From positions 62,001 through 126,000 of the forward strand of contig JACFMQ010000009.1 of NCBI GenBank assembly GCA_019455325.1: DNA of 64,000 bases, in the 5' to 3' direction. This document shows, piece after piece, positions 217 to 51,802 of the stretch. Under the pieces are notes generated by a model. The model was not told where the DNA came from. It saw nothing but the letters and a program-made list of their open reading frames with translations, and searched no databases. The translations under genes and the position numbers were made by a program. The first letter of the stretch is position 1. The number at the start of each line of letters is the position of its first letter. This DNA is from Rhodocyclaceae bacterium (lineage in GTDB: Bacteria; Pseudomonadota; Gammaproteobacteria; Burkholderiales; Rhodocyclaceae).

Positions 217-597
217 TCAGTCCTTTTCTTCCGGCGGCAGGCGGTAGACGTCGTCCGGGCCGGCGGAGAAGGTGTTCTTCTGCGCGCGCAGGTCGCGGTA
301 GACCGCCGCGCGCATGATCAGCATGGAGACGACCGGCGCGGTCATCAGCACGAAGACGGTGATCAGCAGTTCGTGGATCACCGGCCGCGACTGCAGCGCG
401 GTGAAATGGATCATCGACGCGATCAGGATGCAGCCCGCGCCGAGCGTGACGGTGATGGCCGGGCCGTGGATGCGCTGGTAGAAGCTGGGCAGGCGCATCA
501 GGCCGATGGCGCCGATCAGCGCGATGCCGCCGCCGAGCACGAGCAGGAAGATGACCGGCACCGCGGCCCAGGCCGGCAGGTTCTCGGCGCCGGTCAT
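217..597 (-). CDS. mrpG: Mrp-type Na+/H+ antiporter subunit G
   Basis: Small membrane protein of 126 residues, the last gene of the Mrp (Mnh/Pha) cation/proton antiporter operon. Three hydrophobic segments are visible at about residues 10-32, 45-66 and 75-97, with the family signature GLMRLPSFYQRIHGPA after the first. Length and motif fit MnhG/PhaG. Mrp antiporters are multi-subunit inner-membrane complexes that use the proton gradient to expel Na+ (or K+), and all small subunits are needed for activity. It differs from the upstream junctions of the operon: an 82-bp hairpin-rich repeat, not an ATGA overlap, separates it from mrpF. The SD GGAGGG at the end of that repeat provides its ribosome binding site. 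Confidence 0.9.
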   Translation of the reverse strand: MTGAENLPAWAAVPVIFLLVLGGGIALIGAIGLMRLPSFYQRIHGPAITVTLGAGCILIASMIHFTALQSRPVIHELLITVFVLMTAPVVSMLIMRAAVYRDLRAQKNTFSAGPDDVYRLPPEEKD

Positions 598-679
598 TGT
601 ACGACCCTCCTGTCGCTGCGCGACATCCTCCCCGAGGGAGGGAGAGCGCCCCCTTCGGGCGGCCGGGCGGGGGCGCTCA
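598..679 (-). repeat. Intercistronic hairpin repeat, copy 1 (mrpF/mrpG junction)
   Basis: Read on the minus strand, this element begins at the mrpF stop (ATGAGCGCCCCCG) and ends with GACAGGAGGGTCGTACA just before the mrpG ATG. It contains three inverted repeats: GCGCCCCC with GGGGGCGC, CTCCC with GGGAG around CTCGGG, and TGTCG with CGACA. Copy 2 at 50124-50203 is nearly identical apart from a 2-nt indel and a few substitutions, although it lies in an unrelated operon. The element supplies the Shine-Dalgarno sequence of the downstream gene. No coding function is apparent. Confidence 0.85.
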
Positions 680-958
680 TTCGATCACCTCCCCGCGCAT
701 CAGGAACTTGGCCAGGGCCACGGTGGAGACGAAGCCGGTCAATGCGATGAGGACCGCCGCCTCGAAATAGATCAGGCTGCCGAAGCGGATGCCGAGCATC
801 AGGATCAGCAGCATGGCGCACATCCACAGCGTGTCGAGCGCCAGCACGCGGTCCTGCGCGGCCGGGCCGACGAACAGGCGCACCGTGCAACACAGCATGG
901 CCAGCACGATGCAGATCAGGGCGAACCAGATCGCCAGCGACAGGAGGCTCGTCAGCAT
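677..958 (-). CDS. mrpF: Mrp-type Na+/H+ antiporter subunit F
   Basis: Membrane protein of 93 residues with three hydrophobic helices (about 5-27, 36-56 and 62-83). The loop motif RLFVGPAAQDRVLALD between helices 1 and 2 is diagnostic for MnhF/PhaF. It is a subunit of the inner-membrane Mrp complex. It lies 8 bp downstream of mrpE in the same operon. Its stop codon is also the first base triplet of the hairpin repeat that separates it from mrpG. Confidence 0.9.
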   Translation of the reverse strand: MLTSLLSLAIWFALICIVLAMLCCTVRLFVGPAAQDRVLALDTLWMCAMLLILMLGIRFGSLIYFEAAVLIALTGFVSTVALAKFLMRGEVIE

Positions 959-14856: not shown

Positions 14857-14951
14857 ACCGCAGAGACGCAGAGGCGCAGAGGGAGCGCAGAGAAAGGCAA
14901 AGGAGAAAAGGTTTTCTCTGCGTCATCTCTGCGTCTCTGCGCCTCTGCGGT
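14857..14951. repeat. MITE-like inverted repeat of GCAGAG units, copy A
   Basis: Two ~39-bp imperfect inverted arms are built of repeated GCAGAGRCGCAGAG motifs (left ACCGCAGAGACGCAGAGG, right ending CGCCTCTGCGGT) around a short A-rich centre. A second copy with longer perfect arms lies at 42245-42340. The shared outer bases AACGTCC suggest a defined element end. No transposase is present. It lies between the zinc operon promoter and argS, outside both coding regions. Confidence 0.85.
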
Positions 14952-15022
14952 GGACGTTCGCCTTTCCCTGATCCCCCGCCCCCCGCAGCGCGCGCGCCGC
15001 CGGGGTCTCGCGGCCGATCCGC

Positions 15023-42236: not shown

Positions 42237-42244
42237 TGAAAACG

Positions 42245-42340
42245 TCCACCGCAGAGGCGCAGAGACGCAGAGGAAACGCAGAGAAAAGCGATTTTGATTT
42301 CCTCTGCGACATCTCTGCGTCTCTGCGCCTCTGCGGTGGA
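42245..42340. repeat. MITE-like inverted repeat of GCAGAG units, copy B (inside liu operon)
   Basis: The first 28 bases (starting TCCACCGCAGAGGCGCAGAG) are exactly inverted at the right end (ending CTGCGCCTCTGCGGTGGA). The inner parts diverge around an AT-rich centre (GATTTTGATTT). It is the same family as copy A at 14857-14951. It sits between liuB and liuC on the same transcript, so its RNA would form a long hairpin within the operon mRNA. Confidence 0.9.
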
Positions 42341-45837: not shown

Positions 45838-46755
45838 ATGAGCCTCCCGAGAACCGTCAAGATCGTCGAGGTCGGCCCGCGCGACGGTCTGCAGAACGAG
45901 AAGCAGCCGGTGCCGACCGCGGTCAAGGTCGAGCTGATCGAGCGGCTGGCCGACGCCGGCCTGCCGGCGGTCGAGGCGACGGCCTTCGTGTCGCCGAAGT
46001 GGGTGCCGCAGATGGCCGACAGCGCCGAGGTGATGAAGGCCCTCCGCCGCAAGGAGGGCGTCGCCTACCCGGTGCTGGCGCCGAACCTGAAGGGCTTCGA
46101 CGCGGCGGTCGAGGCCGGCGCTGTCGAGGTCGCGGTCTTCGGCGCGGCCTCCGAAGCCTTCTCGCAGAAGAACATCAACTGCTCGGTCGCCGAGAGCATC
46201 AAGCGCTTCGAGCCGGTGGTCTGCGCCGCGCTGGCGCTCGACATGAAGGTGCGCGGCTACGTCTCCTGCGTCGTCGGCTGCCCGTACGAGGGGCCGGTGG
46301 CGCCGCAGAAGGCGGCCGAGGTGGCGCAGCGCCTGTTCGACATGGGCTGCTACGAGGTCTCGCTCGGCGACACCATCGGCGTCGGCACGCCGGTCGCCGT
46401 GCAGCGCATGATCGAAGCCTGCGCGCGGCACGTGCCGATGGCCAGACTCGCCGGCCACTACCACGACACCTACGGCATGGCCGTGGCCAACGTCTATGCC
46501 TCGCTGCAACTGGGCATGCGCGTCTTCGACAGCTCGGTCGCCGGCCTCGGCGGCTGTCCGTACGCCGCCGGCGCATCGGGGAACGTTGCCACCGAAGACG
46601 TCGTCTACCTGCTCAACGGACTGGGCATCGAAACGGGCATCGACATGGACAGGCTGCTGGACGCCGGGCAATTCATCCTCGGGCACCTCGGCCGCGCGCC
46701 GGCCGCGAAGTCGGCGCGCGCGCTGCTGGCGAAGCGGGGGGCGGGGGGCGCATGA
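45838..46755 (+). CDS. liuE: Hydroxymethylglutaryl-CoA lyase
   Basis: 305 residues, TIM-barrel lyase of the HMGL-like family. It cleaves HMG-CoA to acetoacetate and acetyl-CoA, the last step of leucine breakdown. Motifs are [14 protein letters not shown] (metal-binding Asp and catalytic Arg), [13 protein letters not shown] (His-x-His metal ligands) and the catalytic Cys in [15 protein letters not shown]. It normally follows liuD directly; here the Doc pair intervenes. Its stop is the first part of a hairpin element that leads to the DUF1289 gene. Confidence 0.95.
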
Positions 46756-46822
46756 GCGTTCTCGCCCGGCGGGTGTTCTCTCCTTCGGGGAGATGGCCGT
46801 GCAGCGGCCGGAGAGTCGCCCG
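46753..46822 (+). repeat. Diverged intercistronic hairpin element (liuE/DUF1289 junction)
   Basis: This has the same plan as the copies at 598-679 and 50124-50203. It starts at the stop codon in ATGAGCG, forms TCTCTCCTTCGGGGAGA and then GGCCG-TGCAG-CGGCC hairpins, and ends with GGAGAGT as ribosome binding site before a GTGAGC start. The first GC-rich hairpin is missing and the stems have different but still complementary bases. Relationship to the other two is probable, not certain. Confidence 0.55.
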
Positions 46823-47017
46823 GTGAGCGTCGCCTCGCCGTGCATCAACGTCTGCCGCATGGACGAGGCGGGCGCGCTGTGCGTCGGCTGCCTGCGCACG
46901 CTCGACGAGATCGCCGGCTGGAGCCGGGCCTCCGACGACGCCCGGCGGGCGATCCTGGCGGCGATCGACGAACGCCGCGCCGGGCGCGATCCGCAAACGC
47001 CAGGGCTTGCGCCATGA
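46823..47017 (+). CDS. DUF1289 Cys-rich mini-protein
   Basis: 64 residues. SPCINVCRMDEAGALCVGC is the DUF1289 signature, with two Cys pairs that probably bind one zinc or iron ion, followed by RTLDEIAGWSRASDD. The function of this family is unknown. GTG at 46823 is preferred because GGAGAG lies seven bases upstream and the conserved motif starts at residue 5. An in-frame ATG at 46793 would translate through the hairpin element. Its stop overlaps the next mini-gene (ATGA). Confidence 0.85.
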   Translation: MSVASPCINVCRMDEAGALCVGCLRTLDEIAGWSRASDDARRAILAAIDERRAGRDPQTPGLAP

Positions 47018-48926: not shown

Positions 48927-50126
48927 GTGGAGACGACCGCAGGTTTCACCCGACCGCAGCCGCACATGCGGTTCGCCGGCGCCTTCGCCGCGCTGCTGGC
49001 GCCGGCCGCGGCGCTCGCCGACTACACCTGGAACTTTCCGCCGCCGGTGACGCCGGTCGCCCGCGAGACGCTGCAGATCCACAACGAGTTCATGATCATC
49101 ATCGGCGTGCTGTTCACGGTGGTGTTCGCAATCATGATCTATTCGATGGTCAAGCACCGGAAGAGCCTCGGCCACGCGCCGGCCCGGTTCTCCGGCCCGA
49201 CCGGCGCCGTGCAGTGGTTCTGGGTGCTGGTGCCCTTCGCCATCCTGCTCTTCATCGACTTCGTGCTGATGGGCATCCCGGCCTGGCGCGCGGTGGTCGA
49301 GATGGAGGACACCAAGACGAAGGCGGACATGGTGCTGAAGATCACCGGCATGCAGTGGAAGTGGCAGTATGAGTATCCGGAATCCGACATCCGCTTCGTC
49401 AGCGCCCTGTCGACGCCGCGCGAGCAGATCGCCAACCAGGAGGCCAAGGGCGAGCACTACCTGCTGGAAGTCGACAACGAGGTGGTGCTGCCGGTCGGCA
49501 GGAAGGTGCGCATCCTGCTCACCGCCACCGACGTCATCCACACCTGGTGGGTGCCGCAGTTCGGCGTCAAGCGCGACGCCATTCCCGGCTTCCTGCGCGA
49601 GACCTGGGTGCGGATCGAGGCGCCCGGCGTCTATCGCGGCCAGTGCGCCGAACTGTGCGGCAAGGACCACGGCTTCATGCCGGTGGTCGTGCGCGCCGTG
49701 CCCGAACCGGAGTTCGCCGCCTGGGTCGAAAGCAAGAAGGGCGAGCAGACGGCGACCGCGGCCGGCGCCGAGCGGACCTGGAGCAAGGACGAACTGCTCG
49801 CCAAGGGCAAGGAGGTCTACGAGGCGCAGTGCGCGGTCTGCCATCAGCCCGACGGCAAGGGCCTGCCGCCCGCCTTCCCGGCGCTCTCCGGCAGCCGGAT
49901 CGTGACCGGACCGCTGCTCGGCATGAACGGCAGGCTGGCGAAGGACGGCCACGTGGACCGCGTGCTCAACGGCAAGGAGGGTACAGCCATGCAGGCGTTC
50001 CGCAACACCCTCTCCGACGTCGACCTCGCCGCCGTCATCACCTACGAGCGCAACGCGCTCGGCAATGCCACGGGCGACCTGATCCAGCCCGCCCAGATCA
50101 AGGCCCTGCGCCGGGAGGCCCCATGA
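48927..50126 (+). CDS. ctaC: Cytochrome c oxidase subunit II with C-terminal cytochrome c domain
   Basis: 399 residues: signal sequence, two transmembrane helices (about 55-75 and 92-115), and the CuA cupredoxin domain with ligands in HTWWVPQFGVK (His) and CAELCGKDHGFM (Cys, Cys, His, Met). A fused cytochrome c domain follows, with heme motif CAVCH at about residue 316 and a downstream Met ligand (GTAMQAF). It passes electrons from cytochrome c to CuA and then to subunit I. The fused heme domain is of the caa3 type. GTG at 48927 is supported by GGAGGAGG. Its stop begins the hairpin repeat that fills the gap to ctaD. Confidence 0.95.
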   Translation: METTAGFTRPQPHMRFAGAFAALLAPAAALADYTWNFPPPVTPVARETLQIHNEFMIIIGVLFTVVFAIMIYSMVKHRKSLGHAPARFSGPTGAVQWFWVLVPFAILLFIDFVLMGIPAWRAVVEMEDTKTKADMVLKITGMQWKWQYEYPESDIRFVSALSTPREQIANQEAKGEHYLLEVDNEVVLPVGRKVRILLTATDVIHTWWVPQFGVKRDAIPGFLRETWVRIEAPGVYRGQCAELCGKDHGFMPVVVRAVPEPEFAAWVESKKGEQTATAAGAERTWSKDELLAKGKEVYEAQCAVCHQPDGKGLPPAFPALSGSRIVTGPLLGMNGRLAKDGHVDRVLNGKEGTAMQAFRNTLSDVDLAAVITYERNALGNATGDLIQPAQIKALRREAP

Positions 50127-50203
50127 GCGCCCCCGCACGGCCGCCCGAAGGGGGCGCTCCCTCCCTCGGGGAGGATGTCGCACAGCGACAGGAGGGTAGT
50201 TTA
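50124..50203 (+). repeat. Intercistronic hairpin repeat, copy 2 (ctaC/ctaD junction)
   Basis: This runs exactly from the ctaC stop codon (ATGAGCGCCCCCGC) to the ctaD ATG (AGGAGGGTAGTTTA-ATG). It has the same three inverted repeats as copy 1 at 598-679, and differs from it by a 2-nt deletion and a few substitutions. It provides the ctaD ribosome binding site (AGGAGGG). Confidence 0.85.
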
Positions 50204-51802
50204 ATGAGCTACGCGCCTACCGCTCCGCACGACACGCAGCACGACGGACACACGCCGTCCGGCCTGCTGCGCTGGCTGACGACGACCAACCACAAGGACA
50301 TCGGCACGATGTACCTGCTCTTCTCGCTGCTGATGTTCTTCGTCGGCGGCGCGATGATCCTGGCGGTGCGCGCCGAGCTGTTCCAGCCCGGCCTGCAGTT
50401 GATGCAGCCGGAGTTCTTCAACCAGTTGATCGGCGTGCACGCGCTGGTCATGATCTTCGCCGCGCTGATGCCGGCGGCGACCGGCTTCGCCAACTGGCAG
50501 ATCCCGCTGATGATCGGCGCCCCGGACATGGCGCTGCCGCGCATCAACAACCTCGGCTTCTGGCTGCTGCCGCCGGCGGCGCTGCTCTTGACGCTGCCCT
50601 TCCTGCTGGCGGTCTTCGGCGTCGGCGACGGCGCGGTGGCCACCGGCTGGACGCTGTACGCGCCGCTCTCGGTGCAGGGCGGCCTGGGCGTCGACTTCGC
50701 CATCCTCGCGCTGCACATCTTCGGCATCAGCTCGATCCTCGGCTCGATCAACATCATCGTCACCATCTTCAACCTGCGCGCGCCGGGCATGACGATGATG
50801 AAGCTGCCGATCTTCTGCTGGGGCTGGCTGATCACCGCCTTCATGCTGATCGCGACGATCCCGGTGCTGGCCGGCGCCATCACCATGCTGCTCACCGACC
50901 GCCACTTCGGCACGCACTTCTTCAACGCCGGCGGCGGCGGCGACCCGATCCTCTTCCAGCACCTGTTCTGGTTCTTCGGCCACCCCGAGGTGTACATCCT
51001 GCTGCTGCCGCTGTGGGGCCTGATGCCGCACGTGCTGGCGACTTTCTCGCGGAAGCCGATCTACGGCTACAAGGCGCAGGTCTACGCCTTCATCGCCATC
51101 GGCGTGCTGTCGGTGATCGTCTGGGCGCACCACATCTTCACCGCCGGCCTGCCGGTGCCGGCGCTGCTCTATTTCATGTACAGCACGATGGCCATCTCGG
51201 TGCCGCTGGCCGTGCTCTTCTTCTGCTGGATCGCGACGATGTGGCGCGGCGCCATGAGCTTCGAGACGCCGATGCTCTTCGCCCAGGGCTTCATCGTGCT
51301 CTTCGGCGTCGCCGGCCTGACCGGCCTGGTGCTCGCCGACGTGGCCGCCGACGCGCAATACCACCACAGCTACTTCGTCGTCGCCCACTTCCACTACGCG
51401 CTGTTCGCCGGCGGCATCATGGGCGTGATGACCGGCGTCTACTACTGGCTGCCGAAGTGGACCGGGCACATGATCGACGAGCGGCTCGGCAAGCTGCACT
51501 TCTGGCTGACGATCGTCTCCTTCAACCTGGCCTTCATGCCGCAGTTCTTCGTCGGGCTGGCCGGCATGCCGCGGCGCATCCCGGACTACGCGCTGCAGTT
51601 CGCCGAGTTCAACGCCATCTCGACGGTCGGCGCCTTCATTCTCGGCTTCTCGCAACTGCTCTTCGCGTATAACGTCTGGAAATGCATGCGCGGCGGCGAG
51701 AAGGCCGCAGGCCGCGCCTGGGAGGGCGCGGACGGGCTGGAATGGGAGCTGGCGTCGCCGCCGCCGCACCACAGTTGGGAAACGCCGCCGGCGATCAGGT
51801 GA
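50204..51802 (+). CDS. ctaD: Cytochrome c oxidase subunit I
   Basis: 532 residues, twelve-helix heme-copper oxidase catalytic subunit. Recognisable are TTTNHKDIGTMYLLF, the low-spin heme region IGVHALVMIFAALMP, the CuB His-Tyr cross-link motif WFFGHPEVYILLLP, HHIFTAG (CuB His pair), and HSYFVVAHFHYALFAGG (heme a/a3 ligands). It reduces O2 to water and pumps protons. The sequence is A-type (aa3). It starts at the end of the hairpin repeat and precedes the small assembly gene by 12 bp. Confidence 0.97.
   Translation: MSYAPTAPHDTQHDGHTPSGLLRWLTTTNHKDIGTMYLLFSLLMFFVGGAMILAVRAELFQPGLQLMQPEFFNQLIGVHALVMIFAALMPAATGFANWQIPLMIGAPDMALPRINNLGFWLLPPAALLLTLPFLLAVFGVGDGAVATGWTLYAPLSVQGGLGVDFAILALHIFGISSILGSINIIVTIFNLRAPGMTMMKLPIFCWGWLITAFMLIATIPVLAGAITMLLTDRHFGTHFFNAGGGGDPILFQHLFWFFGHPEVYILLLPLWGLMPHVLATFSRKPIYGYKAQVYAFIAIGVLSVIVWAHHIFTAGLPVPALLYFMYSTMAISVPLAVLFFCWIATMWRGAMSFETPMLFAQGFIVLFGVAGLTGLVLADVAADAQYHHSYFVVAHFHYALFAGGIMGVMTGVYYWLPKWTGHMIDERLGKLHFWLTIVSFNLAFMPQFFVGLAGMPRRIPDYALQFAEFNAISTVGAFILGFSQLLFAYNVWKCMRGGEKAAGRAWEGADGLEWELASPPPHHSWETPPAIR

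Follow-up and report, generated by a model that had tools for sequence, protein, structure and literature searches.

The mycobacterial interspersed repetitive units (MIRUs) are described as apparently mobile elements that insert at start codons and carry an open reading frame (ORF) which becomes coupled with a -4 nt spacing, and the same source gives the -4 nt overlap as the commonest spacing, within the range of most efficient coupling (PMC12548453). The Rickettsia palindromic elements (RPEs) are described as apparently mobile palindromic sequences whose in-frame translation makes them part of unrelated proteins (PMC10969869, PMC3733652). In this study, we analyzed a window of 64,000 nt from a Rhodocyclaceae bacterium (assembly GCA_019455325.1, contig JACFMQ010000009.1, positions 62,001 to 126,000), in which an element of about 80 nt lies between mrpF and mrpG and again between ctaC and ctaD. 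We consider it quite likely to be a non-autonomous mobile palindromic element of Rhodocyclales and Alcaligenaceae (Betaproteobacteria), which would preserve translational coupling at NTGA overlaps.

The MIRU is the closest known system, and the likeness concerns target logic and strategy. Empty sites place the insertion of the present element at the NTGA overlap of co-oriented genes, and its small ORF is, judged by sequence, coupled to the downstream gene at -4 nt in 80 of 139 distinct copies or arrays, with 48 of the 139 in a fusion frame instead. MIRUs belong to different bacteria. As far as MIRUs are described, the element is set apart by its three covarying hairpins, a Shine-Dalgarno sequence of its own and the fusion mode; the two are likened by mode of action and not by sequence. 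With the RPEs it shares a palindromic build and in-frame translation (here predicted), but RPEs are described as about 150 bp long and inserted in genomic ORFs, while the element sits at a stop/start overlap, mainly as a separate small ORF. The REP/GTAG repeats with RAYT, described from Thauera (PMC3733652), are likewise palindromic, multicopy and partly tandem. The element differs from them in being longer (~80 nt), in having three hairpins and no conserved tag and in being tied to NTGA, the distinction being drawn from the descriptions and from Y1 not having been found in the genome that holds the window. Open-licence papers, judged by titles and the beginnings of abstracts, contained no account of such an element in Betaproteobacteria.

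The two near-identical copies at mrpF/mrpG and ctaC/ctaD had been pointed out in a sequence-only reading of the window, and both are present, with flanking genes named by Pfam (Table 1). They are of ~83 nt and differ by 2 nt (ATG to ATG 83 vs 81). Their location had been given correctly, except that the stop/start overlap begins one base earlier. A 23-nt core, GATGTCGCNCAGCGACAGGAGGG, has only these two sites in the window when up to 3 mismatches are allowed (chance expectation 0.01), and the window contains a third, diverged copy. The AGGAGGG ribosome site just before the next start is found in both copies as described. The other mrp junctions had been called plain ATGA overlaps, which holds only in part: among those resolved by a scan, one is an ATGA (stop 1462) and one a TGATG (stop 3422). 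Absent from the earlier reading is the open frame that runs through the element from the ATGA at its 5' end: the ctaD frame, for instance, is uninterrupted from 50123 up to the stop at 51800-51802 (559 codons). No Rfam family reached its gathering score within the window, and the 85-nt copy had no match in either the plasmid or the phage collection.

The genome that holds the window contains about 20 copies. A BLAST search of it with the ctaC/ctaD copy identified 15 places covering at least 77 of the 86 query letters at 87% identity or higher, together with weaker ones, at unrelated gene pairs. A covariance model built from 16 copies and run over the whole genome gave 22 matches at E<=1e-3, including the third window copy. 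The 16 aligned copies, oriented by their genes, share the same plan, NTGA-GCGCC...-AGGAGGG (or a close variant)-...-RTGA, with an open frame on each side. Nearly all copies start at the NTGA stop of the upstream gene and end with AGGAGGG-RTGA at the next start; AGGAGG stands 8 nt upstream of the start in most copies of the pattern set (see below). In a check of coding frames by third positions, made after the length-class counts given below, the most coding-like frame stopped at the element's 5' TGA in 20 of the 21 classified copies of this genome (a set that omits the partial or weak matches L016, L019, L022, L026, L027 and L030), in 62 of 77 family copies and in 60 of 73 pattern entries. The copies that were classified are found at gene junctions, neither at random positions nor, as in the Rickettsia-type placement, in the interior of an ORF. 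A few weak or partial matches fall outside this classification, hits without a 5' NTGA are mostly unclassified, and interior copies are possible among them.

Insertion is established by comparison with congeners. Among the orthologous junctions inspected, limited to matches whose locus was fetched, 31 of 34 are without the element, and most of these are plain RTGA overlaps and not unrelated sequence of the same length, which indicates that the element inserted there. The ctaC/ctaD junction is empty in all five congeners where it was found (three ATGA overlaps, and two with a TAG stop just upstream); this species reads ...GGCCCC-ATGA-GCGCC...TTTA-ATGA-GCTAC and congener G005 reads ...GGCCCC-ATGA-GTCAG. 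The ftsI/murE junction (gene names assigned from protein letters) is empty in six of six congeners, all of them RTGA overlaps. For six further junctions, searched with a joined query, 20 of 23 orthologues are without the element, a copy is present in G004:C13, and two orthologues in G005 hold a different internal variant.

These empty RTGA/ATGA sites support the earlier proposal of an element inserting at ATGA junctions, with one part of it falling away, namely that the ATGA is copied as a 4-nt unit. The 5' site over 151 copies is ATGA in 123, GTGA in 20, CTGA in 5 and TTGA in 3, and the first base of the 5' NTGA is uncorrelated with that of the 3' NTGA (42 AA, 50 AG, 7 GA and 8 GG; p = 1.0). 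This lack of correlation speaks against a simple 4-nt ATGA duplication on insertion. Because the two first bases are independent, the 3' RTGA appears to belong to the element, its R base apparently arriving with it.

From the 5' NTG the frame is open through the element. Most copies encode a peptide of ~28 amino acids (aa) whose stop overlaps the next start, and in others the frame joins that of the next gene (ctaD, +27 aa). The former wording, in which both genes are kept in frame, is better replaced by that of an open frame that either ends on the next start or is fused to the next gene. ATG-to-start lengths were drawn from 214 copies or arrays, comprising 99 from the family, 21 from the own genome and 94 stretches from a pattern search of a species-level genome collection. 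The first length count used 142 of them, after exclusion of 16 that lack a 5' NTG where the model starts, 9 variants cut short at the 3' end by the model, 19 pattern matches without TGA at the expected place, some of them plainly unrelated (e.g. Rhizobiaceae), and 28 whose upstream ORF did not, by a set threshold, end exactly there. Removal of 3 duplicates left 139, all with an upstream ORF ending exactly at the element; other near-duplicates across the two collections may remain among them.

Among these 139, the length is 2 mod 3 in 85 (the 80 coupled small ORFs mentioned above being those with the 3' start retained), 0 mod 3 in 48 and 1 mod 3 in 6, so that 133 are at 0 or 2 mod 3, spanning 16 different lengths (69-330 nt). 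The lengths 83 and 81 nt account for 98 of the 142. In 65 of the pattern stretches the TGA has a near-fixed place, and these comprise 32 of fusion type at 81 nt, 30 coupled at 83 nt, two of fusion type at 84 nt and one exception. Since each independent length has a two-in-three chance of fitting the length rule, more weight was placed on loss of the 3' start codon. It is lost in 19 of 48 fusion-frame copies vs 5 of 85 coupled-frame copies (Fisher p = 2.5e-6, relatedness not corrected), and in 14 of 35 vs 4 of 80 when only single copies are counted (p = 8.3e-6); four of the five coupled-frame copies without it have frames running on to 55-150 codons. The 3' start would be dispensable in the fusion frame.

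Tandem arrays are in agreement: in-frame repeats such as MSAPARPPEGRAPSPGEDVAQRQEGTPVSAPARPPEG... contain no stops, and the internal RTGA has disappeared from several of the arrays; the spacing after such loss appears to be divisible by 3 in most of the arrays read, with L289 as an exception. Two of the 1-mod-3 cases can be described further: L015 consists of two tandem units, each a closed small ORF, and in L288 the ORF stop lies 5 nt beyond the next start. At L014 (own genome, G000:C9:647623-647709), the upstream gene apparently continues across the element in the small-ORF frame and stops on the next start, and the protein end, ALPRNALGKLERKRLRALLAEAEARRQ..., resembles, by eye, the product of congener DNA at the same place; the link between genes may thus also be kept by a C-terminal extension. 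L248, L275, L070 and L082 are perhaps further C-terminal fusions of the upstream gene (L014 and L275 remain within the 139).

The three hairpins per copy that had been proposed gain support from covariation across 89 aligned copies. Both sides have changed in 24 of 26 pairs (11.5 in shuffles, with 0 of 500 reaching the observed number), double-change cells number 171 vs 31.5 in shuffles, 92.7% of pair cells hold standard pairs, and the covariation score reaches 0.271 vs 0.104 in shuffles, slid controls being far lower. The structural alignment was fitted to the model, which favours the model's pairs; the prediction made by RNAalifold itself retains 20 pairs, 19 of them with double changes. G-U pairs outnumber A-C mismatches in hairpin 3 (18 vs 9) and near the ribosome site (27 vs 5). 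The stems may matter as DNA, as RNA or as both.

A census of the family found the element in at least 34 of 150 sampled genomes and 23 of 68 genera, a lower bound since 29 candidates per genome were scored, with the own genome holding the most matches at that threshold (20). An order-wide census, in which 14 candidates per genome were scored, gave a match in at least 2 of 300 genomes, one of them the own genome, so that it carries little weight on range. The element is present in relatives, including other Rhodocyclales genera and Alcaligenaceae; named hosts are Thauera, Aromatoleum, Zoogloea, Methyloversatilis, Pigmentiphaga, Verticiella and Candidimonas. Relatives that keep this plan in other letters occur in G010, G121 and G162, the ATG-to-start length being 77 nt in most. 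The nearest neighbour of a copy lies within the same genome for 22 of 67 copies vs 3.2 in shuffles, as expected of lineage-specific bursts.

According to the mechanism proposed here, the element would enter an overlapping stop/start (NTGA) between operon genes. The original NTGA would still terminate the upstream gene, and its NTG, with the old ribosome binding site ahead, would start the element's frame, which would pass through the three hairpins. In the coupled mode, the TGA of this frame would overlap the element's 3' RTG by 4 nt, and a ribosome finishing the ~28-codon peptide could restart at the next gene, aided by AGGAGGG. In the fusion mode, the frame would be in register with the next gene, whose N-terminus would gain 27 residues per unit. 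In a third and rare mode, the upstream gene would be shifted into the element frame and its product would be extended at the C-terminus as far as the next start. The next gene would be served by the element's AGGAGGG and RTGA, and in all three modes the link between the two genes would outlive the insertion, which looks built to leave coupling in place. The sequences themselves show insertion against empty sites, the target and orientation, the frame rule, the covariation of the hairpins and a lineage-specific spread; we infer translation of the frame, reinitiation, coupling kept in vivo, and movement by transposition rather than by another copying process.

Several points weigh against this mechanism. 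Open 28-codon frames are common in GC-rich DNA and two of three lengths fit by chance; many copies share 83 or 81 nt by descent, and the length statistic is only moderately strong. The comparison of 3' starts ignores relatedness, many fusion-frame cases coming from Pigmentiphaga and its relatives. The rule is broken by L264 (stop 18 nt early) and L050 (7 nt early), and L289, L259, L280 and L094 are without explanation. In helix 1, the longest stem, G-U and A-C mismatches are equal (20 vs 20), and this stem may therefore be conserved at the DNA rather than the RNA level. Neither a transposition event nor an intermediate was seen, and presence or absence among congeners could also stem from recombination. 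As for a mobilizing enzyme, no Y1_Tnp (RAYT transposase) was found in the own genome, and Y1_Tnp was not enriched with the element (19 of 34 element-bearing vs 56 of 116 other family genomes).

The covariation of the hairpins, some surplus of G-U pairs in hairpin 3 and around the ribosome site (counts above) and the position of AGGAGG in most pattern-set copies would also be expected of a regulatory RNA whose hairpins and strong Shine-Dalgarno sequence tune the protein ratio or protect the mRNA, with selection having chosen the junctions. We regard this as unlikely, since the flanking genes are functionally unrelated (COX1, MrpG and HMGL-like by Pfam; murE, ispE and transporters named from protein letters), orthologous junctions of the same genus are mostly without the element, and the ribosome site cannot be what the element is for in the 19 of 48 fusion-frame copies that no longer have the 3' start. 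There is also very little probability, in our judgement, that the frame rule is a by-product of inherited 83 and 81 nt lengths, with translation through the element irrelevant. The prevalence of these two lengths and the ease with which open frames arise in GC-rich DNA are consistent with it, but other lengths obey the rule as well (71, 77, 80, 113, 119 and 152 nt are 2 mod 3; 69, 84 and 243 nt are 0 mod 3), start-codon loss depends on frame, and a bridging ORF of this kind is present in 7 of 12 stretches with sister repeats of opposite orientation.

A repeat of the REP/BIME type, moved by a Y1 (RAYT) transposase and intergenic only incidentally, would likewise be small, palindromic, patchy and sometimes tandem. 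Single-strand transposases have a one-sided target rule, which the 3' RTGA travelling with the element resembles and which counts in favour of such a repeat. The same can be said of the REP clusters that are described inside Thauera genes, where they encode 43-82 residues (PMC3733652). We nevertheless think this origin very improbable: the Y1_Tnp searches found none in the own genome and no association over the 150 genomes; REPs are described as 20-40 bp long with a GTAG or CGTC tag, vs ~80 nt here; the element's GGTAGT stretch is GGTCGT or otherwise in many copies; and it sits at one target defined at the codon level instead of in intergenic space generally.

Beyond the single coupling-preserving mobile element, we see about equal reason to believe and to doubt that Betaproteobacteria harbour a whole class of palindromic mobile elements specialized for operon stop/start overlaps, made up of separate families, one per orientation, which reach a MIRU-like solution as a coupling peptide or a protein tag. 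Such a class would make translational coupling a niche for selfish DNA and would steadily create small ORFs and terminal protein extensions. The element itself points, outside mycobacteria, to mobile DNA persisting in operons by being translated across. It offers a natural test of coupling, in which one junction exists with and without a bridge and in coupled and fusion form. For annotation, overlooked repeat extensions of 27 residues or wrong starts (ctaD in the window) may be present in proteins of Rhodocyclales and Alcaligenaceae, and 28-codon ORFs of the element type are element-born. Should a mobilizing enzyme be found, its target would be defined at the codon level, as NTGA between genes.

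Table 1. Positions of the element copies, their parts and the adjoining genes in the 64-kb window.
Feature	Position	Strand	Remark
Element copy ctaC/ctaD	50123..50207	+	From ATGA with ctaC stop (50123-50126) to ATGA at conventional ctaD start (50204-50207); ATG to ATG 81 nt, fusion frame
27 element codons, MSAPARPPEGGAPSLGEDVAQRQEGSL	50123..50203	+	Open, in frame with ctaD; possible N-terminal extension
AGGAGGG Shine-Dalgarno-like sequence	50190..50196	+	Part of cta copy
Hairpin 1	50125..50159	+	Arms covary across species
Hairpin 2	50161..50173	+	CTCCC/GGGAG stem
Hairpin 3	50176..50190	+	TGTCGC/GCGACA stem; congener has compensatory GTCCC/GGGAC
Element copy mrpF/mrpG	594..680	-	ATGA (680-677) to ATGA (597-594); ATG to ATG 83 nt, coupled frame
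28-aa small ORF, MSAPARPPEGGALPPSGRMSRSDRRVVQ	594..680	-	Stop TGA 596-594 overlaps mrpG start ATG 597-595
AGGAGGG Shine-Dalgarno-like sequence	605..611	-	Part of mrp copy
Third, diverged copy	46752..46826	+	ATG to GTG 71 nt, coupled frame; found by covariance model
24-aa small ORF of third copy		+	Stop 46824-46826 overlaps GTG start (46823) of DUF1289 gene
ctaC (COX2, Pfam)	48927..50126	+	Upstream of cta copy
ctaD (COX1, Pfam)	50204..51802	+	Downstream of cta copy
mrpF (MrpF, Pfam)	677..958	-	Upstream of mrp copy; 958 is the outermost possible start in the open frame
mrpG (MrpG, Pfam)	217..597	-	Downstream of mrp copy
HMGL-like gene (Pfam)	45838..46755	+	Upstream of third copy
DUF1289 gene (Pfam)	46823..47017	+	Downstream of third copy

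Variants of the element were also recorded. A similar 5' end with other internal hairpins (the GGAGCCGCGCAGCGGCGAA type) was found in L230 and L244 of G005 and in L021, L023 and L028 of the own genome, and the G005 variants of this type fill two junctions where the own genome has the standard element. Long variants (L017 and L018 of the own genome, L253, L266, L306 and L316) are enlarged between hairpins 2 and 3 by a further hairpin block, GGGGTTTCGCGGAGC... or similar, the ATG-to-start length of L017 and L018 being 152 nt. L022 of the own genome is a degenerate copy that, read by eye, now seems to form the N-terminus of the downstream protein (MSASAPARPPEGSTPAVAQRPEG...).

Repeats of a mirror type (CCCCCACGCTC..GCTGCCCCCC, opposite orientation) lie between co-oriented genes with a bridging ORF of 26-33 codons or a fusion. 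In addition to the seven of 12 distinct stretches cited above, bridging was seen in two of three others tried. Examples are L036 (opposite strand, ~1501-1586), L320 (1001-1086), L331, L333, L334, L335, L338, L341 and L343, and the own genome has three pattern matches to this repeat. Contigs labelled Rhizobiaceae, Gellertiella and Rhizobium (L081, L091, L115 and L127) contain a look-alike, approximately CCTCCCCCTTGAGGGGGAGGATGTCGCGAAGCGACAGGAGGG, without the stop/start context, which is either related or convergent. Another repeat, CACCGCAGAGGCGCAGAGACGCAGAG, occurs in the window at 14899-14958 and 42241-42340, forming both a distant inverted pair and a close one whose members are 10 nt apart.
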